Source: Polaribacter marinus
GTDB lineage: Bacteria > Bacteroidota > Bacteroidia > Flavobacteriales > Flavobacteriaceae
Direction of reading: 5' to 3'
Length of the DNA: 64,000 nucleotides
Assembly: GCF_022662535.1 (NCBI RefSeq)
Contig: NZ_JAKQYM010000001.1
Span: 372,001-436,000, forward strand
A program made the translations under genes and the position numbers. Of the stretch, positions 23,996 through 43,378 are shown in pieces. The notes below the pieces were generated by a model. The model was not told the DNA's origin and did no database searches. It worked only from the letters and a program-made list of their open reading frames with translations. Each line of letters begins with the position of its first letter. Position 1 is the stretch's first letter.

Positions 23996-24052
23996 TTTGT
24001 TTTTAGAAAAGCTACCAAACAATAAACAACTCTTTACCTATGTTTTTTATAA

Positions 24053-24150
24053 TAATACTATATTTTTATAAAATTTATACTAGTATATTTTTAAAATTAT
24101 ACTAGTATTTTATATTTATTATACTAGTATATGTTTAAATCTTATACTTG
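24053..24150. repeat. Phased array of TATACTAGTAT palindromes, 22-bp unit
   Basis: Three near-perfect copies of TATACTAGTAT(A) begin at 24076, 24098 and 24120, exactly 22 bp apart. A degenerate copy (ATACTATAT) is at 24055, again 22 bp before, and a weaker one (TATACTTG) at 24143. Spacers are A/T tracts. The unit is a 12-bp self-complementary sequence repeated every two helical turns, inside the 369-bp gap 23996-24364. It may be an operator array or an AT tandem repeat. The rest of the gap holds only the terminator at 24303-24339. Confidence 0.75.
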
Positions 24151-24364: not shown

Positions 24365-25699
<1,335 letters not shown>

Positions 25700-25777
25700 A
25701 GAATTTTTATACATAATTATAATGGTTTTATAAAAAGGGAGTGTGCTTTTTGTTAAAAAAAAAGAAGGCTACCTAAT

Positions 25778-25998: not shown

Positions 25999-27987
25999 TT
26001 ATAGTTTTTCTTTTAATAGCGCAATTTTGTCTCGTAGTTGTGCTGCTACAATAAAGTCTAAGCTTTTTGCTGCGGCTTCCATTTGTTTACGGGTGTCTCT
26101 AATGCGTTTTTCTATTTCTTCTTTTGGTAAGTATTGTAAATCTTGTTCTGCAGCTTTTTGTTTTGCATTGTCGTAATGATAACTAGAAACAGCAGATTTA
26201 GATAAGGTATCATCTATCTTTTTATTGATTTGAGTAGGAGTGATATTGTTTTTTGTGTTGTATGCGATTTGTTTTTCTCGCCTTCTATCTGTTTCATCAA
26301 TTGTTTTTTGCATGCTGTTGGTTATTTTATCGGCATATAAAATAGCCAAACCATTTACGTTTCTTGCGGCTCTACCAACGGTTTGCGTTATAGAACGGTG
26401 AGATCGTAAAAAACCTTCTTTATCTGCGTCTAAAATAGCAACCAAAGATACTTCTGGTAAGTCTAATCCTTCTCTTAAAAGGTTAACACCAATAAGAACA
26501 TCGAATAACCCTTTACGTAAATCTTGCATAATTTCTACTCGCTCTAAAGTATCTACATCAGAATGTATATATCTACAGCGTATGGCAACCCTTGTTAAGT
26601 ATTTTGTCAATTCTTCTGCCATTCTTTTGGTAAGAGTTGTAACTAAAGTACGTTCGTCTTTTTCTACTCTTATTTGAATTTCTTCAATTAAATCGTCTAT
26701 TTGATTTAAACTAGGTCTAATTTCTATTATGGGATCTAGTAAACCAGTAGGTCGGATGACTTGTTCTACAAAAACACCTTCTGTTTTTTCTAGCTCGTAA
26801 TCTGCTGGTGTAGCAGAAACGTATATTACTTGATTTTGAATTGCTTCGAATTCATCGAATTTTAAAGGACGATTGTCCATAGCAGCAGGTAAACGAAACC
26901 CATATTCTACTAGGTTTTCTTTTCTGCTTCTATCTCCGCCATACATGGCATGTGTTTGTGGAATTGTTACGTGACTTTCATCGATAATCATTAGATAGTC
27001 ATCTGGAAAATAGTCTAATAAACAGAAAGGCCTCGTACCTGGTTCTCTACCATCTAAATAACGAGAATAGTTTTCTATACCAGAACAATAACCTAACTCT
27101 CTAATCATTTCTAAATCGAATTCTGTACGTTCTTTTAAACGTTTTGCTTCTAGGTGCTTGCCAATTTCTTTGAAGTAATCTACTTGTTTTACCATGTCTT
27201 CTTGAATCATATATATGGCATTTTGCAAGACATCTGGAGAGGTAACAAACAAGTTTGCTGGATAAATAGTAAGTTCTTGAAAGTTTTCTAAAACAGTGTT
27301 ACTTTCTAAGTCGAAAGATTCTATTTCTTCAATTTCATCTCCAAAAAAATGCACTCTGTATCCATTATCTCCATACGAAGGATATATGGTAACGACATCT
27401 CCTTTAACTTTAAAGGTTCCGCTTTTAATTTCTACTTCGGTTCTAGAATATAAACTTTGAACCAATTGATGTAAAAATTTTGTTCTGGCTATTTGTTGAT
27501 CTACATGAATAGGAATTACGTTTTTCTTAAACTCGACTGGGTTTCCTATACCATATAAACAAGATACGGAAGCAACGACTAATACATCTCTACGCCCAGA
27601 AAGTAGGGAAGAAGTGGTGCTTAAACGCAGACGTTCTATATCATCATTAATAGATAAATCTTTTTCTATATAGGTTCCCGTAACAGGAATGTATGCTTCT
27701 GGTTGATAATAATCATAATAAGAAACAAAATATTCTACAGCATTTTCTGGGAAGAATTGTTTGAACTCTGAGTATAATTGCGCAGCTAATGTTTTGTTAT
27801 GAGCTAATACCAGAGTTGGTTTTTTTACTTCTTTGACAACATTTGCTACAGAAAATGTTTTTCCAGAACCCGTAACTCCTAATAAAGTTTGAAATTTTTC
27901 TCCTTCATTTATCCCTTTAACGAGTTCTTTTATAGCTTGTGGTTGATCTCCTGTAGGAGAGAATTCTGATACTAGTTTAAATTCCAT
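25999..27987 (-). CDS. uvrB: Excinuclease ABC subunit B
   Basis: 662 residues, family length. Walker A GVTGSGKTFS (about 38-47), beta-hairpin region YYDYYQPEAYIP (about 91-102), DESH box IIDESHVTIPQ, and helicase motif VI QTVGRAARN are all visible; the C-terminus carries a UvrC-binding UVR motif (EEIEKRIRDTRKQMEAAAKS). UvrB verifies DNA damage in nucleotide-excision repair with UvrA and UvrC, which are not adjacent. It is 29 bp downstream of the first large T9SS cargo gene, on the same strand. Confidence 0.98.
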   Translation of the reverse strand: MEFKLVSEFSPTGDQPQAIKELVKGINEGEKFQTLLGVTGSGKTFSVANVVKEVKKPTLVLAHNKTLAAQLYSEFKQFFPENAVEYFVSYYDYYQPEAYIPVTGTYIEKDLSINDDIERLRLSTTSSLLSGRRDVLVVASVSCLYGIGNPVEFKKNVIPIHVDQQIARTKFLHQLVQSLYSRTEVEIKSGTFKVKGDVVTIYPSYGDNGYRVHFFGDEIEEIESFDLESNTVLENFQELTIYPANLFVTSPDVLQNAIYMIQEDMVKQVDYFKEIGKHLEAKRLKERTEFDLEMIRELGYCSGIENYSRYLDGREPGTRPFCLLDYFPDDYLMIIDESHVTIPQTHAMYGGDRSRKENLVEYGFRLPAAMDNRPLKFDEFEAIQNQVIYVSATPADYELEKTEGVFVEQVIRPTGLLDPIIEIRPSLNQIDDLIEEIQIRVEKDERTLVTTLTKRMAEELTKYLTRVAIRCRYIHSDVDTLERVEIMQDLRKGLFDVLIGVNLLREGLDLPEVSLVAILDADKEGFLRSHRSITQTVGRAARNVNGLAILYADKITNSMQKTIDETDRRREKQIAYNTKNNITPTQINKKIDDTLSKSAVSSYHYDNAKQKAAEQDLQYLPKEEIEKRIRDTRKQMEAAAKSLDFIVAAQLRDKIALLKEKL

Positions 27988-28016: not shown

Positions 28017-30758
28017 TTACTTTCTAACTAAACTAAAATTTCCAGACTCTTTAATAACGTTATCTTCTAAATCTGTAATTTCTGCTTTAAACCAGTAACC
28101 GTTAGACGATAATAATTTTCCGTTATAAGTTCCGTCCCAACCTTGAGTTCCAAATTCTGTTATGGTATGAACAATATTTCCAAATCTATCGAAAATAATT
28201 ATTTCCACAGATTTAAAAAAAGTACTATCTATACCTTTGATATTCCAATAATCATTGTTTCCATCGCCATTTGGAGTGAAAAATTTTTGGTAACCAATTA
28301 CAGATACATTGGTTTGTACTGGAGGTTCGCAATTATTGATATCTCTAACATATACTGTTCTAACTCCTGGATTTACATAGTTAAATGTATGTTCTAAGCC
28401 ATTGCCTAAAAAAGTTATGTTGTCTAATGAAAATTGATAGTTACTATTCCCCAAAAGCCTTACGAAAATAGTGTTGTTTTCTGTCTCTGTATCTACAATT
28501 ATTTCTTGAAAAACAGCCGAATCTGGATTGATAACCGTAAACTCTTTATCGCTAGAACACTCTATACCATTTTCGGTTCTATAAGCGGTTAAGCTAAAAC
28601 TACCAATGGTGTTTAATGTATATTCTCTATTTGTACTGATAATGTTTCCGGTTTCATCTTTCCATTCATATCTATGGTTAAAGGAATTTCCATCTAAAAT
28701 AATAGGAGGGTGTTGTGAAGGAATATCACATATGGTATAACTATCACTAAGATTGATAATCGGAGCTTTGTTTACCGTAAGTTTTATGGGTTCCATACCT
28801 CCGCAACCTAATTCATTATCTACCCTAACATAGATTGTAGTAGAAGGTGAAATGAAATTATCTGGAAGCAAATTATTTGTTGTTTGTGCGTCTATTAAGG
28901 TAGGGTAAAACCGAATTCTATTTGTATTATCTAAACCAAAATTTTGTTTAATTTGAGCTCTTTTTGTTCTTAAATCAAAAGCCCCCTTGGAGTCGCCGTT
29001 TGTTTGATCGGAGCTATCACAAGTAAACATTTCATCAATATTACCTAACGAAACAAATTTAGATTCAATAAAAAAGTTGGTAATGCTAGCACAGCCTTCT
29101 TTAGAAATTACTCTTACAAACAATTCTTGCGGATTGCTTTCGTTTTCAAAAGCTTCAGGATTTGCAATACTGTTTTGGTCATTTTCTGCATCGGTTCTAT
29201 TTCTGTAAAAAACAAAACTTTTATCGATGACATCTATTACCACTTTAGGACCAATATCAAACAAATCAAAATAATCTACACCGTTGTTGTCTGTATCACA
29301 TTGCACTAATCTTTCATTAGGAATTACATCAGGTAGAGGATAAACAGTAACTTTTTTGTAAACGGTAATAATTTCACCTGTATGAAGTGTAAGTTCTGCT
29401 TTTACAGTATAAGTACCACTTGCTCCATATAAATGACTTGGGTTTAATTGTATAGAGGTATTTCCATCTCCAAAATTCCAAGAAATAGATTGAATATCAG
29501 TAAAAGATTCTGCCTCAAAAGAAATTAATTCTCCAATACATTTATTTTCTGTGATTATTCTAGAAGCAAAATAAGACTGTATAAACGTTGGTAAACCAAG
29601 ATTGGAAGCTCCAGAATTAAGATTTATTGCATGATGTCTATAATTACTTTGAAAACCAGCTTTATTTGGTTCTTCGATTACATCTAAATAATCTCCTGAT
29701 ATGGTTTCTCCTTCTTCATCTCCGTAATATGATAGCGTAACATATATCTTACCGTTATTTGCTAATTGTAAAGACCCATCTATTAAACCCTCTTCATAAT
29801 AAAGGTAAGTTTTAGGATCTGTGCTTAGGTTTGGGGTTAAATCGTATTGTATAACACCAGAGATAGATTTAGAGCTATTTGTATACATGTAGTACAACAT
29901 TTTTGAATTTTGAGAAAACTCAATTCCATTTGGTAAGAATTTTGCTCCAAAAGGATCTGGGCTAATTTTATAGTTCTCTGTTAATTGACCTGTAGCATTA
30001 TCAAAATCATATAAGTAAATATATCTAGTATAGTTATTACTCGATTTTCCTGCAATGGCAAGTTTTTTTCCGTTGGGAGAAAATTTCATTGTACCTAATG
30101 CTGGAATGGGGTTGTCTAAAACAGTTCTAATTGGAATCCAGACAAGTCCTGTTTCATCAATTTTATAGATTGCCAAATTATTCATTGCTTCTTCATCAGA
30201 TTCATCTGGGTTGGTTAAAGTAGCTAACCAAATAGATTTACCGTCTTTATGATGAACTGCCGATAATTTTTCTGATGATGCGGAGTGAATTAAATAGGCA
30301 TTTTTTCTAATGATTTTTCCAAGAGGAAAATTATTTGATACTTCTATTTCGGTTAAATAAATTCCTGGAGCAAAGAAGTTTCCTAAATTATCAGGAGTAG
30401 AGTTTTCGCTTCTAGTTCTAAATATGTAAAAAATACTATCACTCCCAGGTTTAGGAATAATTAAACTAGATTGCATGTTTGTGGTTTGCCCTGTTAAACC
30501 TGAGCCATCATCTACTACGGTATGGTTTTTGTTCCAAATAGTTTCTCCGTTAGTATAAAACAATAAATTTCCATTTTTATCAGAAATTGTTGTACATCCT
30601 GCAGGTGTATCCATTACTCCATCTTCTAGAACGCGTACATCTCCTTGGTCAAAATCTAACCCCGCTTTATTTCCAAAATACCAATTGTTTGTTTCGTTTT
30701 GGGAAAACAAATTATAATTGATAATTAAAAGTAGTAGTAATAAAGTAGATTTTTTCAT
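28017..30758 (-). CDS. T9SS type-B sorting-domain cargo protein, propeller head and PKD domain
   Basis: 913 residues. Signal peptide 1-19 (MKKSTLLLLLLIINYNLFS). Residues about 25-390 are a beta-propeller-like head (NWYFGNKAGLDF, FYTNGETIWNKNH, MKFSPNGKKLAIAG). A PKD domain (SWNFGDGNTS) is at about 425-475, followed by stalk modules with QCDTDNNGVDYFDL and a second CD...GAFDL repeat. The C-terminus (about 820-913) is the gliding-motility-associated type-B sorting domain: FFTPNGDGNNDYWN, FDRFGNIV, GWDGTYNGK. It should be exported and presented on the surface. A tandem paralogue lies immediately upstream on the strand (30870). Confidence 0.92.
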   Translation of the reverse strand: MKKSTLLLLLLIINYNLFSQNETNNWYFGNKAGLDFDQGDVRVLEDGVMDTPAGCTTISDKNGNLLFYTNGETIWNKNHTVVDDGSGLTGQTTNMQSSLIIPKPGSDSIFYIFRTRSENSTPDNLGNFFAPGIYLTEIEVSNNFPLGKIIRKNAYLIHSASSEKLSAVHHKDGKSIWLATLTNPDESDEEAMNNLAIYKIDETGLVWIPIRTVLDNPIPALGTMKFSPNGKKLAIAGKSSNNYTRYIYLYDFDNATGQLTENYKISPDPFGAKFLPNGIEFSQNSKMLYYMYTNSSKSISGVIQYDLTPNLSTDPKTYLYYEEGLIDGSLQLANNGKIYVTLSYYGDEEGETISGDYLDVIEEPNKAGFQSNYRHHAINLNSGASNLGLPTFIQSYFASRIITENKCIGELISFEAESFTDIQSISWNFGDGNTSIQLNPSHLYGASGTYTVKAELTLHTGEIITVYKKVTVYPLPDVIPNERLVQCDTDNNGVDYFDLFDIGPKVVIDVIDKSFVFYRNRTDAENDQNSIANPEAFENESNPQELFVRVISKEGCASITNFFIESKFVSLGNIDEMFTCDSSDQTNGDSKGAFDLRTKRAQIKQNFGLDNTNRIRFYPTLIDAQTTNNLLPDNFISPSTTIYVRVDNELGCGGMEPIKLTVNKAPIINLSDSYTICDIPSQHPPIILDGNSFNHRYEWKDETGNIISTNREYTLNTIGSFSLTAYRTENGIECSSDKEFTVINPDSAVFQEIIVDTETENNTIFVRLLGNSNYQFSLDNITFLGNGLEHTFNYVNPGVRTVYVRDINNCEPPVQTNVSVIGYQKFFTPNGDGNNDYWNIKGIDSTFFKSVEIIIFDRFGNIVHTITEFGTQGWDGTYNGKLLSSNGYWFKAEITDLEDNVIKESGNFSLVRK

Positions 30759-30869: not shown

Positions 30870-33614
30870 TTATTTTCTAACTAAACTAAAATTTCCAGAT
30901 TCATTAATATGGTTATCTTCTAAGTCTACAATTTCTGCTTTAAACCAATAGCTATTAGACGTTAATAATTTTCCATTATAAGTTCCATCCCAACCTTGAG
31001 TGCCAAATTCTGTTATGGTATGAACAATATTTCCAAATCTATCGAAAATAATTATTTTCACAGATTTAAAGAAAGTACTATCTAAACCTTTTACGTTCCA
31101 GTAATCATTATTACCGTCTCCATTAGGCGTGAAAAATTTTTGATATCCAATAACAGAGACATTTGTTTGTATAGGAGGTTCACAATTATTTAAATCTCTT
31201 ACATAAATGGTTCTTAAACCAGGATTAACATTGTTAAAAGTGTAATCTAAACCATTGCCAAAAAAGGATGTATTGTCTAAAGAAAATTCATAGTTGCTAT
31301 TTCCATTAAGACTTACAAAAATGGTGTTGTTTTCTGTTTCTGTATCTACAATTATTTGATTAAAAATAGCTGCATCAGGATTAATGACTGTAAATTCTTT
31401 ATCACTAGAACATTCTATGCCATTTTCGGTTCTATATGCAGTCAAACTAAAATTTCCTGTTGTATTTAAAGTATACTCTCTGTTTGTGCTGATGATATTT
31501 CCATTTTCATCTTTCCATTCGTATCTATGGTTAAAAGAATTTCCATCTAAAATAATAGGAGGGTGTTGTGAAGGAATATCACATATGGTATAACTATCAT
31601 TTAGGTTGATAATTGGAGCTGTGTTTACCGTAAGACTAATAGGTTCCATACCTCCACAGCCTAAATCATTATCAACTCTAACATAGATTGTTGTAGAAGG
31701 TGATATGAAATATTCTGGAAGAAGATTGCTAGTTGTTTGTGCGTCTATTAAGGTAGGGTAAAAACGAATTTTATTTGTATTATCTAAACTAAAGTTTTGT
31801 CTAATTTCTCTTCTTTTTTCTCTTAAATCGAAAGCTCCATTTGAATCTCCGTTAAGTTGGTCAGAGCTATCACAGGTAAACATTTCATCAATATTACCTA
31901 GCGAAACAAATTTAGATTCAATAAAAAAGTTGGTAATACTTGCGCAACCTTTATCGGAAATTACTCTTACAAATAGTTCTTGCGGATTGCTTTCGTTTTC
32001 AAAAGCTTCAGGATTTGCAATGCTGTTTTGGTTATTCTCTGCATCGGTTCTATTTCTGTAAAAGATAAAATTTGTATTAATTGGGTTTCTAACAACTTTA
32101 TCTGCAATATTAAATAAGTTAAAATAATCTACACCATCATTATTTATGTCGCATTGAATTAACTCTTGATCTGGAGTTACTTCTGGTAAAGGATATACCA
32201 CTATTTCTTTGTAAAAAGGAATATCGGTTCCGTTAATAGTTACTATACATGTAACTATATATTTTCCTGGAGTTGCATATTGATAACTAGTATTAAGATC
32301 TGTAGACGTAAAACCATTACCATCTCCAAAATCCCAATTAGCTGCTGTTATGGGATTGTATGCATCAAGGCTAAAATGAAAAGTATCTGTAACACATGTA
32401 TTTTCGCTTACTATTCTGTTTCTAAAGTAAGATTGAATAAAGTTAGGTAAACCTCTAAAAGAAAATCCATCTTCTAAATTGATTACATCGTGGGTATAAT
32501 CTGCAGCAACTCCTAACTTATTTGGTTCGTTTATAACTCCAATGGTTTTAATTGGTAAAAATTCAAAGCCAAGATAGGTATCATTTTCATCATAAAGACT
32601 TTCGTAGAATACTTGAGCTACGTATATTTTACCATCTGATCCTAAATTTATAGAAGCAGACAACCTATTTGGTTCTGTAATAAATATAGGTTCTCCTTTA
32701 TAGTATTCATCAGGATGATCTAGAGGTAATTGCATTATTCTGTAGCTACTTCCATTACGATCTGCGTAGTTAGCAGAATAATATAAAAGTTTAGAATCAG
32801 GAGAAAAGCTTAAGCCATAACTACTATATCCGCCTACAAACTCTGCAATGGTCGTGAATTTATTTTTAGTTAATTCTCCAGTTTCGTTATTAAAATTTAA
32901 TAGATAGATAACACCATCATTATATAATGCTATTTTACTGCCATCTGGAGAAGCTTTCATTTCTCCAGGAAGACTTGTGTTAAATTTTAAATGTTCAATT
33001 TGAGAATTAATAGGCGATCTATTAACACCATCTTTTGTAATTAATGTAGCATAAAAAATATCATTTACACCTTGATAAGAATCGCTACCGTAGCTAATTA
33101 CCCAGATATCTTCTCCATTTTTGTGATGTACAGCTGTGATTTTATTGGTTGTAGAGTTAGCAATTCTCATATTTTTAAACTTTACTCTTCCTAAAGGGTA
33201 TGTATTAGAAAATTCAATTTCTGAGTGATAAATACCTGGATAAACTAAAGGGTTGCTTTTTTCTTCTTTTTGAGTAGTAAAAATATAATAAGTGTTGGTA
33301 CTGTTTGGTTTTGGTATTATGATTGAAGATTGTGTGTTTCCTAGATCACCAAACAAACCCTCTCCATTAATCATTATTTCGTGATTTTTATTCCAAATAG
33401 TTTCTCCGTCTGAATAGAATAATAAATTTCCTTGAGGATCTGAAATACTAGAAGAACCTCTTAAAACAGTCATTTGACTATCATTTAGAACGTCTATATT
33501 TCCTGCATTAAAATGCAATCCAGCTTTATCACCAAAGTACCAATAATCAGTTTCTCTTTGAGAAAAAACATTGAGGCTTATTAATGTTAATAATATGTAA
33601 ATTTTTTTTTTCAG
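30870..33614 (-). CDS. T9SS type-B sorting-domain cargo protein (paralogue), non-ATG start
   Basis: 914 residues if it starts at CTG 33614; a mechanical start at TTG 33518 falls inside the conserved head (GDKAGLHFN) and removes the signal peptide. Upstream of 33518 the frame reads KKKIYILLTLISLNVFSQ then RETDYWYFGDKAG, an intact signal peptide and head start, but no ATG, GTG or TTG precedes it (codons ATA ATA ATC CTG AAA). The inferred length (914) matches the 913-aa tandem paralogue. Domains match it: propeller head, PKD (WDFGDGNGF), CD...FDL repeats, sorting domain FFTPNGDGNNDYWN. Either CTG/ATA initiation or a start lost by mutation. Confidence 0.88.
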   Translation of the reverse strand: MKKKIYILLTLISLNVFSQRETDYWYFGDKAGLHFNAGNIDVLNDSQMTVLRGSSSISDPQGNLLFYSDGETIWNKNHEIMINGEGLFGDLGNTQSSIIIPKPNSTNTYYIFTTQKEEKSNPLVYPGIYHSEIEFSNTYPLGRVKFKNMRIANSTTNKITAVHHKNGEDIWVISYGSDSYQGVNDIFYATLITKDGVNRSPINSQIEHLKFNTSLPGEMKASPDGSKIALYNDGVIYLLNFNNETGELTKNKFTTIAEFVGGYSSYGLSFSPDSKLLYYSANYADRNGSSYRIMQLPLDHPDEYYKGEPIFITEPNRLSASINLGSDGKIYVAQVFYESLYDENDTYLGFEFLPIKTIGVINEPNKLGVAADYTHDVINLEDGFSFRGLPNFIQSYFRNRIVSENTCVTDTFHFSLDAYNPITAANWDFGDGNGFTSTDLNTSYQYATPGKYIVTCIVTINGTDIPFYKEIVVYPLPEVTPDQELIQCDINNDGVDYFNLFNIADKVVRNPINTNFIFYRNRTDAENNQNSIANPEAFENESNPQELFVRVISDKGCASITNFFIESKFVSLGNIDEMFTCDSSDQLNGDSNGAFDLREKRREIRQNFSLDNTNKIRFYPTLIDAQTTSNLLPEYFISPSTTIYVRVDNDLGCGGMEPISLTVNTAPIINLNDSYTICDIPSQHPPIILDGNSFNHRYEWKDENGNIISTNREYTLNTTGNFSLTAYRTENGIECSSDKEFTVINPDAAIFNQIIVDTETENNTIFVSLNGNSNYEFSLDNTSFFGNGLDYTFNNVNPGLRTIYVRDLNNCEPPIQTNVSVIGYQKFFTPNGDGNNDYWNVKGLDSTFFKSVKIIIFDRFGNIVHTITEFGTQGWDGTYNGKLLTSNSYWFKAEIVDLEDNHINESGNFSLVRK

Positions 33615-33691: not shown

Positions 33692-36561
33692 CTTATTTTC
33701 TCAACAGAGAGAAGTTTCCTTTTTTGTGTATTGTCGGTTTGTTTGTATTTGCAGGAACGAGAGTTATGTCGTACCAATAATCATCAGAAGGGAGTATTTT
33801 TCCTCCATAAGCACCATTCCACCCCTGACTATCTATAGGTATTTGTGCAACTAATTTACCAAATCTATTAAAGATATTTATTTTAGCATTAGGGTAGAAG
33901 GTTTGATTAGCTCCTTTTACTAGCCAAGTATCATTTGTACCATCACCATTAGGAGTAAAGAATTTAGGGAATTGAATCACAGAGACTAATAAAGTAGTAT
34001 CAGGCGCACATCCATTTTTATCATTTACAATAATGGTGTAAATACCACCTTCTAAGTTTTCAAAAAGAGGTTGGTCTTGGAATCCAATAGATGGGATTCT
34101 TACATTATTATCATTATTAAAGATAGCAAATTGATAATCACCAGGCCCTAAATCATTGTCAATAGTATTGATGTAAATAGAGATATTATCTTGACTACCA
34201 ATATTATTAGATTCGTCAATAATGGTAATAAAGCTTTCTTCTAAGACCGCGATATTAGATTCTTTTACAATAATAGTTCTGGTTCTAGAGCATCCGTCAG
34301 GAGATTGATCAGAAGCCGTTACAATGTATTTACCGCCTGTTGTAACATTTAAAGTACTTGCGTTTCCTAATGGGTTACCAGTGTCATCGGTCCATTGATA
34401 ATCATAAATAGCTCCCGGATTTTCCGCTTCAAGAGTTAATGGTAAATTATTTAAACAAATTATTTGTGGATCGTCTATGCCTTCTTCTCCCATCACTGTA
34501 AAGCTAGGTAATGGTTTTATATTGATGTTGAAAGACAAATTTGTGTTCACACATACAATCGGTGTGTTTTTAACATTTTCTACACGCACATAAATGGTTT
34601 CGTTGTTAGAAGCATTTTGATAGGCATCTTCATTTAAAGCAAGTGATGTATCTCCAGATTCAGCATCCGCAAGAGATGTATAAAAAGTTACACTAAAATC
34701 GTTAAACTCGCTTGGTTGATAATTGGCAAGAATTTCAGGGATTTTATTTTTTAAAGAGATGTCTCCATTAATACCATTGTCATCATCATTAAAAGAGTCA
34801 GAAGTGTTATCACAATCTGTATAATTAGAGATGTTTACTGGGATATTAGGTTCAGGATAAATCAACAAATTAAAAGTAGCAAATACCGATTCACATTGCG
34901 TTCCTGTTTGATCGATTACTTTATAGAAAATGGTTTGCGAACCAGGATCATCTGTGTTAAAGTCAGCAGGGAAGGTTGTTAAAGCAGGATCATTTTCATA
35001 ATTATTTGTATTAACAATTTCCGGTCCACCATTGATTGCATTTTGTGATGATGTATAAAAAGCAACCCTATGATTTGTTCTACCATTTAATATTTCTGGT
35101 ACTTTGGAAGTTAAATCGATGTTTTGTGCAATTCTGTTTCTCGGATCTGCATCTGTAGCGTTAGGAATATCACAGAAAGGTAAAGGCGTAATTGCAGTAA
35201 CGACAGGTAATGGATTGACAATGACTTTAAAAGAAGCGCTGTTAGCGTTGTAACAAGTAGGGTTTGCACTTCTGTCTTGTACTCTAACAAAGATTTCTTG
35301 TTCACTCACATCTCCAGTAGTAAATCCAGCAGGCGCTGAGTTTCTAAAGTCGGTATCGTTTGCAATTCCGTTACTAGAAAGATCATTCGCATCTGTAAGA
35401 GAAGTGTGAAATGTTACTATATAATCAGCTTCAGTTTGAGTTACTCCTAAAATTTCAGAAACTTTATCACGAAGGTTGATTCCAATGTTTTCTCCATCAG
35501 TAGTACTTCCAGAAATAGCATCATCACAGAATTCAAAATTAGAAGGAATATTGGCAACAGGTACAGAATTTACTTGTAAAAAGATATTAGCAGTTCCGGC
35601 ACAACCATTGTTGTTTTTATTAACAATTTTCACATAAATAGTTTGATTATGTGCGTATGTAGGATCGTTGTTGTTTCTATGATTGGCAATTTCACTATTG
35701 ATATCATTAATAGAAGCATCTCTATCGGCATCAGTTTCATAATAATAGACTTCTAAATCAGGTTGTGAAGCAGCAGGGAATAATGCTTTGATATCATTGG
35801 TAGCATCACTAAAATCAAATGTTGAAATTCCATCAGTATCAGAATTAGCAGCCGTATCATTACCGTCAGCATCTAAGAAATCATCACATTGTGTATATGT
35901 ATCATTAAAAGGGAATAGGGTATTAAGATCAGCACTAAAGTTTACCGTTATTTCAATTTTAGCAATACGATAACAATTTTGTGAAGAAATGACTCTAACC
36001 CAAGCTTCACCATTTGCCGTAACAGGATATGTTTCTATGTCTGTACCCGTTATTTCATTACTTTCAGCAATAGCATCTGCTTGCGTAGGAAAATATCTAA
36101 AAACTTCATTTGTATGATTCGTAGAAATATTAGGATTTGCTAATTTTAAATTAACCGTTGTTGTTAAATCAGGATTGTTATGACATTGAATAAGTTGAGC
36201 TGTATTGACTACAGGTAAAGGATCTACAATTAATTGAAAAGACATAAAAGTACTTCCTGCAGTATCGTCAGAAATAGCATTACAATTGGTATTGTCTACA
36301 TTTTCTACACGAACAAATACTTGTTGCGAGTTGGTTACTTCATATCCGTTGTTTTTATCAATAGGGTTTGTAGCGCTGCTTGTTTGTGCATCTGCCAAAG
36401 AGGTATGATAAGACACATTGTATTGTAAAGGATCTAAGGTACCTAAAACCTCAGCATCTTTTGTGCTTAATAGAAAGAGACTTTTATTGTCAATATCTGA
36501 ACCACTAGCAGTATCATCACATAAACGATATTCTGTAGGTTGCACAGGAACAGGGATGTCA
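33692..36561. repeat. Direct repeat copy A (about 2.87 kb)
   Basis: Matches 37865-40734 at a constant offset of 4173 bp. The translated part (about 955 residues) is identical in both genes and the flanks diverge abruptly: C/T at 36562 versus 40735, and T/C at 33691 versus 37864. I compared translations and the edge bases, not each interior base. Confidence 0.93.
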
Positions 36562-37733
36562 CTTACTAGTATATCAAAACTTGTCATATCGAAACAAGTT
36601 GCATTGTTTTTGTTTTGAATTCTAGCATAAATAGTTTCTCCTTGAAAAGCTGTTGCATTTGTATATGGACTTGCTAATTCTGTACCTGTAACATTTGCGG
36701 TTGCTTCTGCCATAGAGTTGAAATACAAAACTTCGAATTCTGTTGCAGATTGACCATTTAAAACTTGAGGTGTGATATCTGTATCTAAATCAAATTGATG
36801 AAAACCAGATGCATCACAAATAGAACGATCATTAGGTTGATTTGCAACTGGGATTTCTGAAAATGTGATTTCTACTTCGTCTTGACCTATAGCTCCATTT
36901 GTATCTGTAACAATTACTTTGTAAATACCAGAAATATCATTGGTTATTTCTAAAGTAGCATTAGTTTGTCCTGCAATGGTAGTGAAACCACTACCTGTGT
37001 CTAATTGCCATTCATAAGTATCTACGGTTCCTGTTGCTGGAGTACCATCTAAATCTACTTGAGTACCCTTACATACATTTTGGTCTTCGCCTAATTCTCC
37101 TACAATAATAGAGCAGTCTGTAATACCTGCTCCAGCTTCTCCAAAATTAGTTTGTTCTAATTTGATAAAACCTGCAGTTCCAGGACTACCTGCAGGAGCC
37201 CAATTAGTAACAAGAAGCACGTAATATTTACCAGCTTCCGCATTTGGTATAGTAAAACTTTCTTCAGATTGATTAGACCAACTACAGTCTATAATATTAG
37301 TACCATCTTGATCATTAATGTAAAAATTTGGATCAGCTGTATTATCAGGGCAATTTCCCCCAATACATCTGTTTGCTAAAGTTGTACAATTTGAGTCAGG
37401 ATTATCAAAAGGTCCCCAAGCAACAAAATCGACATCAATTGGAGAACCGATTGGATTTCCATTCGTGTCAAATTGTGTGTTTTGTATAATATTAAATTTT
37501 AATTCACCTGTTTGATCAACTTTTATAAAAAACCAAGCTCCGTTAGGAGAATCTTGTAGACAACCAAAATCTCCTTGACTTGCGACCCCAGTTACATTTG
37601 GGAATATCTTGACACCAGTTGCGTCTGAACATGCAGGTTCTGCACCATCACATGTTGGTGAACCATTTTGTGAGAATATACTTATTGTAAAAATAAAAAA
37701 TAAAAGGGGTACTATATTTTTAAAAAATTTCAT
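33693..37733 (-). CDS. Giant T9SS type-B cargo protein with cysteine-rich head
   Basis: 1346 residues. Signal peptide 1-22 (ends SIFSQ). Residues about 24-205 form a Cys-rich head (CDGAEPACSDATG, DFGCLQDSPNGAWFFIKVD, ADPNFYINDQDG), then an Ig-like segment (VCKGTQVDLDGTP) and seven repeats of about 90-120 residues starting with CD/CN and a FDL-like or NLRDKV motif. The last part holds an Ig-like module (DYQWTDDTGN) and a type-B sorting domain (FFTPNGDGTNDTWLV ... GNFSLLRK). From IPVPVQPTE to the end it is identical to the neighbouring 37866 gene. Expected surface or secreted adhesin-like role. Confidence 0.92.
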   Translation of the reverse strand: MKFFKNIVPLLFFIFTISIFSQNGSPTCDGAEPACSDATGVKIFPNVTGVASQGDFGCLQDSPNGAWFFIKVDQTGELKFNIIQNTQFDTNGNPIGSPIDVDFVAWGPFDNPDSNCTTLANRCIGGNCPDNTADPNFYINDQDGTNIIDCSWSNQSEESFTIPNAEAGKYYVLLVTNWAPAGSPGTAGFIKLEQTNFGEAGAGITDCSIIVGELGEDQNVCKGTQVDLDGTPATGTVDTYEWQLDTGSGFTTIAGQTNATLEITNDISGIYKVIVTDTNGAIGQDEVEITFSEIPVANQPNDRSICDASGFHQFDLDTDITPQVLNGQSATEFEVLYFNSMAEATANVTGTELASPYTNATAFQGETIYARIQNKNNATCFDMTSFDILVSDIPVPVQPTEYRLCDDTASGSDIDNKSLFLLSTKDAEVLGTLDPLQYNVSYHTSLADAQTSSATNPIDKNNGYEVTNSQQVFVRVENVDNTNCNAISDDTAGSTFMSFQLIVDPLPVVNTAQLIQCHNNPDLTTTVNLKLANPNISTNHTNEVFRYFPTQADAIAESNEITGTDIETYPVTANGEAWVRVISSQNCYRIAKIEITVNFSADLNTLFPFNDTYTQCDDFLDADGNDTAANSDTDGISTFDFSDATNDIKALFPAASQPDLEVYYYETDADRDASINDINSEIANHRNNNDPTYAHNQTIYVKIVNKNNNGCAGTANIFLQVNSVPVANIPSNFEFCDDAISGSTTDGENIGINLRDKVSEILGVTQTEADYIVTFHTSLTDANDLSSNGIANDTDFRNSAPAGFTTGDVSEQEIFVRVQDRSANPTCYNANSASFKVIVNPLPVVTAITPLPFCDIPNATDADPRNRIAQNIDLTSKVPEILNGRTNHRVAFYTSSQNAINGGPEIVNTNNYENDPALTTFPADFNTDDPGSQTIFYKVIDQTGTQCESVFATFNLLIYPEPNIPVNISNYTDCDNTSDSFNDDDNGINGDISLKNKIPEILANYQPSEFNDFSVTFYTSLADAESGDTSLALNEDAYQNASNNETIYVRVENVKNTPIVCVNTNLSFNINIKPLPSFTVMGEEGIDDPQIICLNNLPLTLEAENPGAIYDYQWTDDTGNPLGNASTLNVTTGGKYIVTASDQSPDGCSRTRTIIVKESNIAVLEESFITIIDESNNIGSQDNISIYINTIDNDLGPGDYQFAIFNNDNNVRIPSIGFQDQPLFENLEGGIYTIIVNDKNGCAPDTTLLVSVIQFPKFFTPNGDGTNDTWLVKGANQTFYPNAKINIFNRFGKLVAQIPIDSQGWNGAYGGKILPSDDYWYDITLVPANTNKPTIHKKGNFSLLRK

Positions 37734-37814
37734 GTATTTAGATTGTAAAAAGCTAAAATAATAATAACTTAAAACTATTTGCTAATAAAATAAAGTTTAT
37801 TGAGTGTAAAGCAT

Positions 37815-37842
37815 AAAAAAAAGCTACAAAATTAATTGTAGC
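37815..37842 (-). terminator. Terminator of the 37866 cargo gene
   Basis: Stem GCTACAA / TTGTAGC (37823-37829, 37836-37842); on the minus strand it is followed by eight T (A-run 37815-37822 on plus). Confidence 0.85.
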
Positions 37843-37864
37843 CCTTTTTTTTAAAATTTATATC

Positions 37865-40734
37865 CTTATTTTCTCAACAGAGAGAAGTTTCCTTTTTTGT
37901 GTATTGTCGGTTTGTTTGTATTTGCAGGAACGAGAGTTATGTCGTACCAATAATCATCAGAAGGGAGTATTTTTCCTCCATAAGCACCATTCCACCCCTG
38001 ACTATCTATAGGTATTTGTGCAACTAATTTACCAAATCTATTAAAGATATTTATTTTAGCATTAGGGTAGAAGGTTTGATTAGCTCCTTTTACTAGCCAA
38101 GTATCATTTGTACCATCACCATTAGGAGTAAAGAATTTAGGGAATTGAATCACAGAGACTAATAAAGTAGTATCAGGCGCACATCCATTTTTATCATTTA
38201 CAATAATGGTGTAAATACCACCTTCTAAGTTTTCAAAAAGAGGTTGGTCTTGGAATCCAATAGATGGGATTCTTACATTATTATCATTATTAAAGATAGC
38301 AAATTGATAATCACCAGGCCCTAAATCATTGTCAATAGTATTGATGTAAATAGAGATATTATCTTGACTACCAATATTATTAGATTCGTCAATAATGGTA
38401 ATAAAGCTTTCTTCTAAGACCGCGATATTAGATTCTTTTACAATAATAGTTCTGGTTCTAGAGCATCCGTCAGGAGATTGATCAGAAGCCGTTACAATGT
38501 ATTTACCGCCTGTTGTAACATTTAAAGTACTTGCGTTTCCTAATGGGTTACCAGTGTCATCGGTCCATTGATAATCATAAATAGCTCCCGGATTTTCCGC
38601 TTCAAGAGTTAATGGTAAATTATTTAAACAAATTATTTGTGGATCGTCTATGCCTTCTTCTCCCATCACTGTAAAGCTAGGTAATGGTTTTATATTGATG
38701 TTGAAAGACAAATTTGTGTTCACACATACAATCGGTGTGTTTTTAACATTTTCTACACGCACATAAATGGTTTCGTTGTTAGAAGCATTTTGATAGGCAT
38801 CTTCATTTAAAGCAAGTGATGTATCTCCAGATTCAGCATCCGCAAGAGATGTATAAAAAGTTACACTAAAATCGTTAAACTCGCTTGGTTGATAATTGGC
38901 AAGAATTTCAGGGATTTTATTTTTTAAAGAGATGTCTCCATTAATACCATTGTCATCATCATTAAAAGAGTCAGAAGTGTTATCACAATCTGTATAATTA
39001 GAGATGTTTACTGGGATATTAGGTTCAGGATAAATCAACAAATTAAAAGTAGCAAATACCGATTCACATTGCGTTCCTGTTTGATCGATTACTTTATAGA
39101 AAATGGTTTGCGAACCAGGATCATCTGTGTTAAAGTCAGCAGGGAAGGTTGTTAAAGCAGGATCATTTTCATAATTATTTGTATTAACAATTTCCGGTCC
39201 ACCATTGATTGCATTTTGTGATGATGTATAAAAAGCAACCCTATGATTTGTTCTACCATTTAATATTTCTGGTACTTTGGAAGTTAAATCGATGTTTTGT
39301 GCAATTCTGTTTCTCGGATCTGCATCTGTAGCGTTAGGAATATCACAGAAAGGTAAAGGCGTAATTGCAGTAACGACAGGTAATGGATTGACAATGACTT
39401 TAAAAGAAGCGCTGTTAGCGTTGTAACAAGTAGGGTTTGCACTTCTGTCTTGTACTCTAACAAAGATTTCTTGTTCACTCACATCTCCAGTAGTAAATCC
39501 AGCAGGCGCTGAGTTTCTAAAGTCGGTATCGTTTGCAATTCCGTTACTAGAAAGATCATTCGCATCTGTAAGAGAAGTGTGAAATGTTACTATATAATCA
39601 GCTTCAGTTTGAGTTACTCCTAAAATTTCAGAAACTTTATCACGAAGGTTGATTCCAATGTTTTCTCCATCAGTAGTACTTCCAGAAATAGCATCATCAC
39701 AGAATTCAAAATTAGAAGGAATATTGGCAACAGGTACAGAATTTACTTGTAAAAAGATATTAGCAGTTCCGGCACAACCATTGTTGTTTTTATTAACAAT
39801 TTTCACATAAATAGTTTGATTATGTGCGTATGTAGGATCGTTGTTGTTTCTATGATTGGCAATTTCACTATTGATATCATTAATAGAAGCATCTCTATCG
39901 GCATCAGTTTCATAATAATAGACTTCTAAATCAGGTTGTGAAGCAGCAGGGAATAATGCTTTGATATCATTGGTAGCATCACTAAAATCAAATGTTGAAA
40001 TTCCATCAGTATCAGAATTAGCAGCCGTATCATTACCGTCAGCATCTAAGAAATCATCACATTGTGTATATGTATCATTAAAAGGGAATAGGGTATTAAG
40101 ATCAGCACTAAAGTTTACCGTTATTTCAATTTTAGCAATACGATAACAATTTTGTGAAGAAATGACTCTAACCCAAGCTTCACCATTTGCCGTAACAGGA
40201 TATGTTTCTATGTCTGTACCCGTTATTTCATTACTTTCAGCAATAGCATCTGCTTGCGTAGGAAAATATCTAAAAACTTCATTTGTATGATTCGTAGAAA
40301 TATTAGGATTTGCTAATTTTAAATTAACCGTTGTTGTTAAATCAGGATTGTTATGACATTGAATAAGTTGAGCTGTATTGACTACAGGTAAAGGATCTAC
40401 AATTAATTGAAAAGACATAAAAGTACTTCCTGCAGTATCGTCAGAAATAGCATTACAATTGGTATTGTCTACATTTTCTACACGAACAAATACTTGTTGC
40501 GAGTTGGTTACTTCATATCCGTTGTTTTTATCAATAGGGTTTGTAGCGCTGCTTGTTTGTGCATCTGCCAAAGAGGTATGATAAGACACATTGTATTGTA
40601 AAGGATCTAAGGTACCTAAAACCTCAGCATCTTTTGTGCTTAATAGAAAGAGACTTTTATTGTCAATATCTGAACCACTAGCAGTATCATCACATAAACG
40701 ATATTCTGTAGGTTGCACAGGAACAGGGATGTCA
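37865..40734. repeat. Direct repeat copy B (about 2.87 kb)
   Basis: Second copy of the 33692-36561 segment, covering the C-terminal 955 or so codons of the 37866 gene. No transposase, terminal inverted repeats or target-site duplications flank either copy, which points to recombination or gene conversion. Confidence 0.93.
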
Positions 40735-42488
40735 TTTACGGATAATTTAAAATCTGTAATGTCAAAACAAGCATTTGGAGCGTTTTTATTGTGCACACGA
40801 GCATAAATAGTTTGTGAGCTGAAAGCTGTTGGATTTGTATATGGATTTGGTAACTCTGTTCCTAGCGCATTATCGGTTGCTTTTGCTAAAGTATCAAAAT
40901 ATAAAACTTCAAAAATTGTTGGGTCTAAAGTATCAAGAATTTCTGCAGTTTTATCGGTTTGTAGATCAAAACTATTAAATCCGTCTCTGTCTGTATCACA
41001 GAAATCGATGTCTACTGGTTTTGTTGCTACGGCAGTTTCGAAAACTTCGATATTAAAAGTACCATTGTACTGTGTGATGTTTCCACAAGCATCTGTTAAT
41101 TCAATTTTTAATGAATAAATACCATTATTTGCTGGTGATAAATTGGTTAAAACTAAGTCTGGTGTATTGCTAATTACTGAGCTAGTCGTACCGTTGTCAA
41201 ATGTCCATTCATATGTTTTGTTAACACCAACTACAGTTTCAGAAACAATTGTTTTGTCTTGGCCAACACAAAATGCTAAATCTTGATTGTTAATTACGTC
41301 ACCTGTTCCAGAATCTGTAATTTCAATTGGTAATAATAAAGAAGATATAAATGGAGGTAGTCCTTGTGTGGCTACTTCAGTTCCATTACCAACCCTAACA
41401 GTTTGGTGAGAGTAATTACAAGCAGCTCCCGTTTGATCAGGATTGTTAATTACACTTATGTTTCGAGAACCATCACTTGTCCAATAAATTTTACCATCTG
41501 GACCTAATTGTAAGGCACCTCTAGTATTAAAATAGCTATGGACTAAAAATCTAGAAGCATTTAAATCTGTAATAGTAGTTTTGGTTAAATCAAATTGATA
41601 TAAATTCTCTGTAGAATTATTAAAAGCTCCCGTAGAGATATATAGTTTTCTACTAGATACAGAAAATTCTACTCCATATCCATCCCCACTAATGTCTAGT
41701 GATTTTGGATTATTTGATGTTGTAGTATCAAAGTTTGTAACTTCACCTGTAACGTCATTAAAGTTAAAAATAAAAGTACCTCCGCCCATATTTGCGGCTA
41801 CTAATTTTGTACCGTCAGGAGAAACTTTTAAATACCCTCTAGGGTCACTTGCGTTATATCCTGGGATATGGCTAATTTTTGGGTTTGCTATATCTACACC
41901 AGAATTGTCTACTTTGTATGCGTAAAAATTACTTTCATGTGAAGAAATTACCCAAAAAGTATTACAAGCATCTGCTCTAACAGCTGTTACTTTTTCAGTC
42001 CATGTTGGGTGGTCTGCTGCATTTCCTAAAATAACTGGTCCTGCAACAATATCACCTAAACCTCCGTTTGCAGTCATATCTATGGTGTAGTAGAAAAAAC
42101 CAGCATTACCACTAGATTGTGCCCCTACTGTAAATAAATAATATATATCAGGTCTTCCAGGAGCGGGAACTGTAAGAGCCGACTGAGAACTAGATGCATC
42201 TCCTTTTATACCGACTCCATTTGGCATTGGTGAATTATTCTTGTTCCAAACCGTTAAGTTTGATGTGCTAGGAGTTGGAGCTCCAATATAAAATAATAAT
42301 TCTCCATTTGCATTAGAAAAAGAAGAACAACCTTCTGTGGTATTAAGTTCGCTACCAGCAACAGGAACAGGAGTACCTGAATTAAAATCTAGAGCAGCTT
42401 TATTTCCAAAATACCAAAAGTTAGCTTCTTTTTGAGAAAATGTATTTAATGCAAAAAATAAGAGTATAAAAGGTAGTAGTTTCTTCAT
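37866..42488 (-). CDS. Giant T9SS type-B cargo protein with propeller head
   Basis: 1540 residues from ATG 42488 (an in-frame ATG at 42503 adds MKFRQ before the signal peptide MKKLLPFILLFFALNTFSQ; the -7 promoter at 42514-42521 favours the later ATG). Residues about 25-390 are the propeller-like head (ANFWYFGNKAALDFNSG, PDGTKLVAANMGGG) related to the 28017/30870 proteins, then an Ig/PKD-like module and the same seven CD...FDL repeats, Ig module and type-B sorting domain as the 33693 protein. The C-terminal 955 residues are identical to that protein. Likely surface-exposed. Confidence 0.92.
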   Translation of the reverse strand: MKKLLPFILLFFALNTFSQKEANFWYFGNKAALDFNSGTPVPVAGSELNTTEGCSSFSNANGELLFYIGAPTPSTSNLTVWNKNNSPMPNGVGIKGDASSSQSALTVPAPGRPDIYYLFTVGAQSSGNAGFFYYTIDMTANGGLGDIVAGPVILGNAADHPTWTEKVTAVRADACNTFWVISSHESNFYAYKVDNSGVDIANPKISHIPGYNASDPRGYLKVSPDGTKLVAANMGGGTFIFNFNDVTGEVTNFDTTTSNNPKSLDISGDGYGVEFSVSSRKLYISTGAFNNSTENLYQFDLTKTTITDLNASRFLVHSYFNTRGALQLGPDGKIYWTSDGSRNISVINNPDQTGAACNYSHQTVRVGNGTEVATQGLPPFISSLLLPIEITDSGTGDVINNQDLAFCVGQDKTIVSETVVGVNKTYEWTFDNGTTSSVISNTPDLVLTNLSPANNGIYSLKIELTDACGNITQYNGTFNIEVFETAVATKPVDIDFCDTDRDGFNSFDLQTDKTAEILDTLDPTIFEVLYFDTLAKATDNALGTELPNPYTNPTAFSSQTIYARVHNKNAPNACFDITDFKLSVNDIPVPVQPTEYRLCDDTASGSDIDNKSLFLLSTKDAEVLGTLDPLQYNVSYHTSLADAQTSSATNPIDKNNGYEVTNSQQVFVRVENVDNTNCNAISDDTAGSTFMSFQLIVDPLPVVNTAQLIQCHNNPDLTTTVNLKLANPNISTNHTNEVFRYFPTQADAIAESNEITGTDIETYPVTANGEAWVRVISSQNCYRIAKIEITVNFSADLNTLFPFNDTYTQCDDFLDADGNDTAANSDTDGISTFDFSDATNDIKALFPAASQPDLEVYYYETDADRDASINDINSEIANHRNNNDPTYAHNQTIYVKIVNKNNNGCAGTANIFLQVNSVPVANIPSNFEFCDDAISGSTTDGENIGINLRDKVSEILGVTQTEADYIVTFHTSLTDANDLSSNGIANDTDFRNSAPAGFTTGDVSEQEIFVRVQDRSANPTCYNANSASFKVIVNPLPVVTAITPLPFCDIPNATDADPRNRIAQNIDLTSKVPEILNGRTNHRVAFYTSSQNAINGGPEIVNTNNYENDPALTTFPADFNTDDPGSQTIFYKVIDQTGTQCESVFATFNLLIYPEPNIPVNISNYTDCDNTSDSFNDDDNGINGDISLKNKIPEILANYQPSEFNDFSVTFYTSLADAESGDTSLALNEDAYQNASNNETIYVRVENVKNTPIVCVNTNLSFNINIKPLPSFTVMGEEGIDDPQIICLNNLPLTLEAENPGAIYDYQWTDDTGNPLGNASTLNVTTGGKYIVTASDQSPDGCSRTRTIIVKESNIAVLEESFITIIDESNNIGSQDNISIYINTIDNDLGPGDYQFAIFNNDNNVRIPSIGFQDQPLFENLEGGIYTIIVNDKNGCAPDTTLLVSVIQFPKFFTPNGDGTNDTWLVKGANQTFYPNAKINIFNRFGKLVAQIPIDSQGWNGAYGGKILPSDDYWYDITLVPANTNKPTIHKKGNFSLLRK

Positions 42489-42513
42489 TTGACGAAATTT
42501 CATGTATAAACGT

Positions 42514-42532: not shown

Positions 42533-43378
42533 TTATAAATCCCTCTTTTTTAACAATACAAAAGACAAATAAATAAAGATAAATGTCCAAAATGAAACAA
42601 TTAAAATTGTGGAAAATTCTACAGCATAACTTTTAGTAAAAGTTTCTCCCATCATATTTGCTGCAGATTTTACGGCATTTAATCTAGAAAAAGGTTCTTT
42701 TATAAGGTTAGATATTGATTCTAAAGGTAAGAATTGCATGATTCTATTTACTTTTTCTGTGGTGTTTTCTGCGTTTTGAAAAGTCCAAAATAAATATCCT
42801 TTAAATATGCTTTCTATAATCAACCAAACAAACATTGCACCTACTGCAAATGCAGAACGTTTTACTAATATTCCTAAAAACAATCCGAAAGAGAAAAAAG
42901 CAACAAGTTTTATAAAAAAAGCGAACAGATATTCTAAATCTGTCGTAATAATTGATAATTCGTTGTAATCTGAGTAAGCGAACCCTAAGATTAAAGAAAT
43001 TACAAAAACAAAAATGGTTGAAACCAATGCAAAAAGAATAACTGCATAGAATTTTGATAGTATGAATTCTTTTTTACTTAAGCCGTCTATTAAATTTTGT
43101 TTTAAGGTTTTGTAACTATATTCATTGGCCATCATAGAAACAATTACAAGTAATAAAAAGAACTTAAGTATTGCAGCCATGTATGTATTAAAGTGCCAAA
43201 TGTAAGGGAAGTTGAAGATTCCAGCATCTGCTAAATGCAATTTAAAATTTCCAAATTCAAATTTTATGGCAGCAATTAATGCGATTGAAGTTAGTAAACC
43301 AAAATAGATGAGTGATAAAACTTTACTAGCCCTATTATGTTTTAATTTATGAAACTCTATGGTTAATAATCTTAGCAT
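42533..43378 (-). CDS. ABC-2 type transporter permease
   Basis: 281 residues with six hydrophobic helices (about 20-38, 64-84, 107-133, 146-168, 172-195, 255-275) and a start typical of ABC-2 permeases (MLRLLTIEFHKLKHNR). It pairs with the ATP-binding protein 82 bp upstream (43461). Together they form a NatAB/CcmA-like exporter whose substrate is unknown. The T9SS cargo genes downstream have their own promoter, so a functional link is not supported. Confidence 0.87.
   Translation of the reverse strand: MLRLLTIEFHKLKHNRASKVLSLIYFGLLTSIALIAAIKFEFGNFKLHLADAGIFNFPYIWHFNTYMAAILKFFLLLVIVSMMANEYSYKTLKQNLIDGLSKKEFILSKFYAVILFALVSTIFVFVISLILGFAYSDYNELSIITTDLEYLFAFFIKLVAFFSFGLFLGILVKRSAFAVGAMFVWLIIESIFKGYLFWTFQNAENTTEKVNRIMQFLPLESISNLIKEPFSRLNAVKSAANMMGETFTKSYAVEFSTILIVSFWTFIFIYLSFVLLKKRDL

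Follow-up and report, generated by a model that had tools for sequence, protein, structure and literature searches.

The window analysed here is a 64,000-nucleotide stretch of the Polaribacter marinus genome (NCBI RefSeq assembly GCF_022662535.1, contig NZ_JAKQYM010000001.1, positions 372,001 to 436,000 of the forward strand), in which two adjacent genes, here called P and S, encode cargo proteins of the type IX secretion system (T9SS) and share their 3' parts. Exact comparison within the window finds bases 33692-36561 and 37865-40734 identical at 2870 of 2870 positions at an offset of 4173, and this is the single exact run of at least 15 bases at that offset in the whole window. An original prediction made from the DNA letters had given these coordinates, this offset and a length of 955 or so residues, all of which hold. 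The repeat consists of 955 codons and the stop codon, together with one base 3' of the stop and one base of the preceding codon, and a DNA search of the same genome returned these two copies and no third. We call the shared 3' part the tail and the remainder of each gene the head. Beyond the stop codons the flanks of the two copies are dissimilar, and 5' of the edge of identity the coding DNA is diverged yet related (71, then 54% in the two 60-codon windows after the edge window). Here we report that such tails are homogenised within most of the genomes of the genus that we compared, and that recurrent homologous recombination between the tails of old paralogues, mostly as gene conversion, is very probably the cause.

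Both proteins were correctly predicted to be T9SS cargo: they match the type B sorting domain TIGR04131 at 98.5 and 98.3 bits (cut-off 35), as well as CHU_C above its cut-off, and a Pfam scan at E 0.001 found a PKD-type domain and CHU_C in the two genes and nothing else. Each has a hydrophobic N-terminus ending in FSQ (by eye), and each ends in GNFSLLRK. The S protein is laid out as a K319L-like PKD domain, repeated modules of ~110 residues and CHU_C, and the tail itself holds six modules of ~100-120 residues, further immunoglobulin-like stretches and the sorting domain (modules by eye in both cases). The P head models as beta-propeller-like, with a Z of about 20 against solved propellers at a mean predicted local distance difference test score (pLDDT) of 65; Foldseek template-modelling scores on the query were at most 0.40 among the 50 matches listed. 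A model of the last 560 residues of the tail from a five-sequence alignment (mean pLDDT 55) was too poor for a fold search, and a sequence search for solved relatives at E 0.01 found none for the P protein or for the tail profile.

The tail was searched against 97 genomes of the genus of the window, one genome per species, and reaches 1e-60 in 72 of them (by eye, among the matches listed). A family-wide search found it at that level in two of 199 genomes, the source genome and one of another genus; a same-genus member of that set (G020) fell below the level. A scan of public genomes with the tail added one locus, L033, from an "Uncultured Tenacibaculum sp." (NZ_CANNBW010000006.1), whose first 6 kb are 87% identical to genome G071. 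Several genomes had two tail matches of equal score but unlike gene length, and stretches were fetched partly because of such paired matches, which makes the sample non-random. Genes with a tail score of at least 200 numbered 77 after exclusion of those running off a contig at the 3' end and of a broken gene in G010 (L050); removal of two without an intact sorting-domain end and four fragments of less than 700 residues left 71, of which 48 fall in 21 genomes having at least two. Their heads were clustered into five main types, P, Q, S, V and N, with S joining two sub-types.

Heads and tails of these genes have separate histories. The best match of the tail lies in its own genome for 40 of the 48 genes and the best match of the head for 0 of 47. 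On a tree of the 71 tails, a branch separates the tails of one genome from all others for 16 of the 21 genomes, compared with a mean of 0.16 and a maximum of 2 in 1000 shuffles of the labels, and head type is not clustered on that tree (33 changes; shuffled mean 33.3). The heads, in turn, have relatives in other species: the P head is matched elsewhere at 77% over 368 residues, and the first 190 residues of the S head, counted from the end of the signal stretch, are matched by orthologues at 60-65% in 12 others of the 97 genomes searched, with two further weaker ones at 44-50%. The close relatives G023 and G072 allow a comparison of synonymous divergence (dS). For two orthologous S-type heads dS is 0.40 and 0.45, and for the tails that follow these heads it is 0.53 and 0.52, whereas tails of different genes within one of these genomes differ by 0.017-0.053 (last 360 codons of the tails). 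The Q heads of the two species differ by 0.06 and the Q tails by 0.42; where the broken G023 Q gene is compared, 157 codons are covered. Because dS between tails is far lower within a genome than between the species, the tails of G023 and G072 were homogenised after the species split. Paralogous tails are thus closer within a genome, with exceptions, and unconverted heads follow orthology, two of the marks of concerted evolution by gene conversion.

In many other genomes the likeness of the tails approaches that seen in the window. It is 100% over 3027 bp for copies 178 kb apart in G091, 99.94% over 3350 bp for inverted loci 1.3 Mb apart in the single-contig genome G055 (with a near-identical part of up to 1115 residues), 99.1% over 2520 bp in G023 and 95.9% over 3064 bp in G029 (both single contigs), 99.2% over 2475 bp in G072, and 98.4% over 2984 bp in G010. 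Eight further genomes (G001, G035, G046, G049, G050, G064, G071, G083) have tails alike at 88.6-95.4% over 1.7-2.6 kb, and the last ten 60-codon windows of the tails in G001 reach 98-99%. Eight single-contig genomes (G001, G023, G029, G046, G050, G055, G071, G081) have at least two genes with at least 550 tail residues among the matches listed, and by eye all except G081 (seven of the eight) show tracts of at least 88%. Among 73 genes, 18 of 39 within-genome pairs and 0 of 2589 between-genome pairs contain an exact run of at least 300 bases.

By inspection in 60-codon windows, the tail profiles are patchy mosaics of exact and diverged stretches with sharp edges. Two S-type genes of G023, for instance, read 97, 100, 100, 100, 100, 100, 81, 84, 93, 93 and 68% from the C-terminus, and other gene pairs of this genome are near 100% across a longer stretch. 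Between the 3' flanks of the copies no relation is clear, with 14-31 identical bases among the first 60 and a longest exact run of 15 (G091). By eye, the 5' edge of the tract falls at most 21 residues before or at most 10 after a Cys-Asp pair that opens a module in 16 of 18 comparisons; of the remaining two edges, one lies mid-module and one (G091) is masked by unread bases. We did not use this as a tie between breakpoints and module starts, as unlike upstream modules would yield the same edge. Two broken genes were also seen: the tail of the Q-type gene of G023 (L051:1806-8055) is split over two frames, yet its DNA is 99.1% like that of its neighbour, and a further tail-bearing gene in G010 (L050:3506-10428) is broken over three frames and has a tail 96-97% like the intact copies.

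Gene order places the pair in a wider setting. An ABC (ATP-binding cassette) transporter, an ABC-2 permease, P, S and uvrB follow one another in this order in L033, G066, G071 and G079, as they do in G012 with a third gene, and in the window with two further cargo genes ahead of uvrB. The P and S genes therefore look old, and only the identity of their tails looks recent. The P and S tails of L033 agree at 96-100% over nine 60-codon windows and then at 85 and 61%, and the L033 tail is 40% identical to that of the window; it thus seems that one old pair was homogenised independently in different species. Over nine windows the P and S tails are 83-92% alike in G012 and 68-86% in G066.

Flanking genes also occur in several combinations. 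Upstream neighbours are of three kinds, the ABC-2 permease (U1), a 447-residue protein without a family match (U2) and pirin (U3), and downstream neighbours of four, uvrB (D1), a carboxyltransferase-like protein (D2), isocitrate lyase (D3) and initiation factor IF-2 (D4). Nine of the 12 pairings were seen among 44 slots with a cargo tail score of at least 200 and both edges visible, typed by hand: U1-D1 in 28, U2-D3, U2-D4 and U3-D2 in three each, U1-D2 and U2-D2 in two each, and U1-D4, U2-D1 and U3-D4 in one each. Fifteen extra slots, with unlike tails or fetched later, comprised nine U1-D1, five U1-D2 and one U2-D2. G083 carries U1-P-D2 together with U2-Q-D1, both of the products expected from a crossover in the tails between U1-P-D1, the commonest arrangement, and U2-Q-D2, which is found in G036 (with a tail just 45% like that of the window) and, with two more genes between, in G029. 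In the single-contig genome G046 the Q gene occupies the U1 slot and the P gene the U2 slot, exchanged relative to G050.

Table 1. Features of the cargo locus; positions are those of the window.
Feature	Position	Strand	Remarks
Tail copy 1	33692..36561	-	3' 955 codons and stop of gene 33693-37733, 1 extra base at each end
Tail copy 2	37865..40734	-	3' 955 codons and stop of gene 37866-42503, 1 extra base at each end
S gene, T9SS type B cargo, 1346 aa	33693..37733	-	S head (CDGAEPxCSD type)
P gene, T9SS type B cargo, 1545 aa	37866..42503	-	P head, modelled as beta-propeller-like; PKD, modules, CHU_C
Unique S head	36562..37733	-	Orthologues in other genomes
Unique P head	40735..42503	-	Orthologue in another genome
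P/S intergenic spacer	37734..37864	.	Hairpin 37823-37842, then T-run on + strand; A-run ahead of hairpin
Neighbouring type B cargo gene	30870..33518	-	Propeller-like head; shorter, unlike tail
Second neighbouring type B cargo gene	28017..30758	-	Tail type as in 30870-33518
ABC-2 permease (U1)	42533..43378	-	Upstream slot edge; adjoins cargo genes in other species too
uvrB (D1)	25999..27987	-	Downstream slot edge; adjoins cargo genes in other species too

The other features of the locus are listed in Table 1. The hairpin in the spacer between P and S is possibly a two-way terminator, judging from its sequence; matches to the terminator consensus, taken as consensus matches only, numbered 2 where shuffling gave an expectation of 4.4. 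The two cargo genes nearer uvrB are an older case of a shared tail, with another tail type, their tails being 76-97% alike across the final 14 windows (30 codons each) and 37-67% before. For 30870-33518 the start codon listed is a TTG that lies within the head, and the frame runs on upstream through a signal-peptide-like stretch without ATG, GTG or TTG; translation may begin at a rare codon (there is a CTG ahead of the lysines), or the start may have been lost. Farther along, gene 24365-25714 (CAP and B-lectin matches) contains a perfect TAT repeat of 14.3 units at 24748-24790 that encodes an asparagine run, which may be variable in length, and an AT-rich 22-base unit is present in 4.7 copies downstream of that gene (24044-24148).

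We consider these observations together to make it very probable that homologous tails recombine with one another recurrently, mostly by conversion. The proteins would follow a common plan of signal peptide, gene-specific head, long stalk of repeated modules and type B sorting domain, in which the homologous 3' part (stalk plus sorting domain) would be overwritten repeatedly from gene to gene, leaving many genomes with a near-uniform tail of their own; in the genome of the window the last conversion would have been recent enough for 2870 bases to remain identical. The heads are not homologous and so not convertible, and would evolve separately. Some exchanges would resolve as crossovers and re-pair heads with new downstream segments of the chromosome. 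We infer that RecA-type homologous recombination is the agent and that the process continues in living populations. Within the window, the earlier expectation of a 4173-bp deletion through recombination of one tail with the other stands on the map, with a correction as to the head that would survive, which is that of the upstream P gene, the S head being lost.

Several points weigh against this reading. Six genomes with at least two such genes each (G004, G012, G041, G044, G066, G079) showed no within-genome match of at least 85% over 150 bp, although on the tree the tails of three of them (G004, G066, G079) do fall together by genome; in the single-contig genome G081 two tails are just 64-68% alike; and the tails of G012, G023, G041, G044 and G072 do not form exclusive groups on the tree. 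The sample was partly preselected for pairs, so the proportion of tails matching best at home is a non-random figure. Much of the same picture would arise if tails had been fused again and again to heads already present. Finally, in nine of 12 genomes (L139-L141, L143-L148) uvrB has no such cargo gene within 11-14 kb upstream, and because of this the re-pairing of flanks does not reduce to simple reciprocal exchanges; some members of the genus may have lost the contents of the cargo slot or had the slot relocated.

The original prediction had offered very recent gene conversion or segmental duplication. Conversion is supported by the within-genome homogenisation of tails in most of the genomes compared, the orthologous heads and the mosaic profiles. 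The other possibility, that a gene or its 3' part was duplicated recently in this lineage and another head was fused or kept, would explain the exact identity and its sharp ends, and many genomes of the genus do have one long-tail gene among the matches listed. As the origin of the pair, however, duplication fits badly with the presence of P followed by S between the ABC-2 permease and uvrB in G066, G071, G079, G012 and L033, each with its own version of the tail, and with the heads having orthologues of their own (P at up to 77%, S at 60-65%). Mosaic profiles are also unexpected from a single duplication, and the less similar pairs of G012 (83-92%) and G066 (68-86%) are near to a pair predating tail identity; we regard a recent duplication as quite improbable. 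An effect of assembly, in which short reads impose identity on tails that are not the same at every site, or in which an unrolled loop yields the second tail, must be weighed for a 50-contig draft in which a 16S gene was not found by a search that was positive in nine of 14 control genomes. Other drafts do break at these genes: contigs with P and S genes stop in the tail, sharing their last 121 (G061) or 119 bases (G019), and a run of unread bases lies within the P gene of G091 (L046) at the edge of the shared tail. Single-contig genomes, among them G055, G023 and G029, nevertheless show that near-identity of the tails, in some cases far apart, is genuine, and both heads in the window are distinct genes with orthologues, each needing a 3' end. 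A few genuine differences between the two tails may have been smoothed away by the assembler, and we think it unlikely that assembly explains the repeat.

Programmed antigenic or phase variation, with the tails as built-in anchors for switching the expressed head, would fit the many combinations of heads and neighbours (the nine pairings of 12 among 44 slots) and the exchanged P and Q heads of G046 and G050. The events seen, however, separate species, each represented by one genome, and neither a recombinase nor a silent store of heads was present among nine scanned proteins, the sole place looked; we give this explanation little credence. Those nine, taken from the 14 open reading frames of at least 150 residues listed for 24-52 kb, likewise held no transposase family, in agreement with the earlier remark that transposon features are absent, although a search aimed at mobile elements was not made. 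The window contains no inverted repeats of at least 60 bases, which, with a recombinase, would mark a shufflon or another site-specific switch.

What might maintain recombination between tails can be considered in terms of secretion. A PorP/SprF-like gene beside a type B cargo gene is common, though not universal. PorP_SprF matches number three in the source genome; they lie on contigs C44 and C46, with none on C11, which carries P and S. Two of them adjoin other type B genes, and the third (G000 C44:196151-196993) lies beside none of the CHU_C matches listed and is a candidate for a common shuttle. Such an arrangement has a parallel in Flavobacterium johnsoniae, in which three type B proteins without a shuttle gene of their own use one shuttle, Fjoh_1677 (PMC12618676). 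The genes described here resemble those orphan substrates in being type B cargo without an adjoining PorP/SprF gene, and differ in that the orphan sorting domains are >44% alike and not identical (PMC12618676). Selection might favour uniform tails if several heads had to stay compatible with a single shuttle or anchor; homology by itself could also sustain the homogenisation. We put forward tentatively, as a possibility on the doubtful side, that one stalk-and-address module serves as the chassis for many heads genus-wide, and that recombination keeps its copies matched to one shuttle or anchor, mounts new heads and makes crossing points in the chromosome. If so, the cell keeps exchangeable adhesins riding on one evolving tail. 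The idea that type B cargo without its own shuttle gene is held to a common tail becomes testable through the homogenised tails described here.

These genes, which are likely to encode surface proteins of T9SS-bearing bacteria, provide a natural and replicated example of genes with one half that evolves in concert within genomes and another that follows ordinary descent. They also carry a warning: different histories are blended in any tree, orthologue call or short-read assembly that relies on them, and homogenised tails would account for contig breaks at these genes. A literature search in which subscription journals were thinly covered returned nothing on conversion among type B cargo genes or in Tenacibaculum.

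Among known systems, the gingipains and HagA of Porphyromonas gingivalis have type A sorting domains. The hagA, rgpA and kgp genes of this species are described as having identical repeats within and between genes that automated assembly did not fully resolve (PMC5266723). Two variants lack kgp, a loss attributed to homologous recombination at hagA-kgp, the two genes being called virtually identical at the 3' end (PMC9328147). These genes are like P and S in being T9SS cargo with differing N-terminal parts and regions identical between genes, and unlike them in carrying gingipain protease and cleaved-adhesin domains; neither gingipain catalytic nor cleaved-adhesin domains were found in P or S by Pfam at E 0.001. 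The genes described here are further set apart by type B sorting domains, a stalk of other modules, recurrence across the genus and several types of head. For the KLIKK proteases of Tannerella forsythia, the authors suggest fusion of genes to shared ends, and the terms "gene conversion" and "recombination" do not occur in their text (PMC4404884). Those proteins are proteases ending in KLIKK, whereas the proteins studied here end in GNFSLLRK, have no protease domain and belong to genes whose near-identical part reaches 1115 residues (G055). In concerted evolution by gene conversion, paralogues are more alike within than between species. The present case is unlike the usual one in that concert is limited to one half of the genes, the other halves being unrelated.

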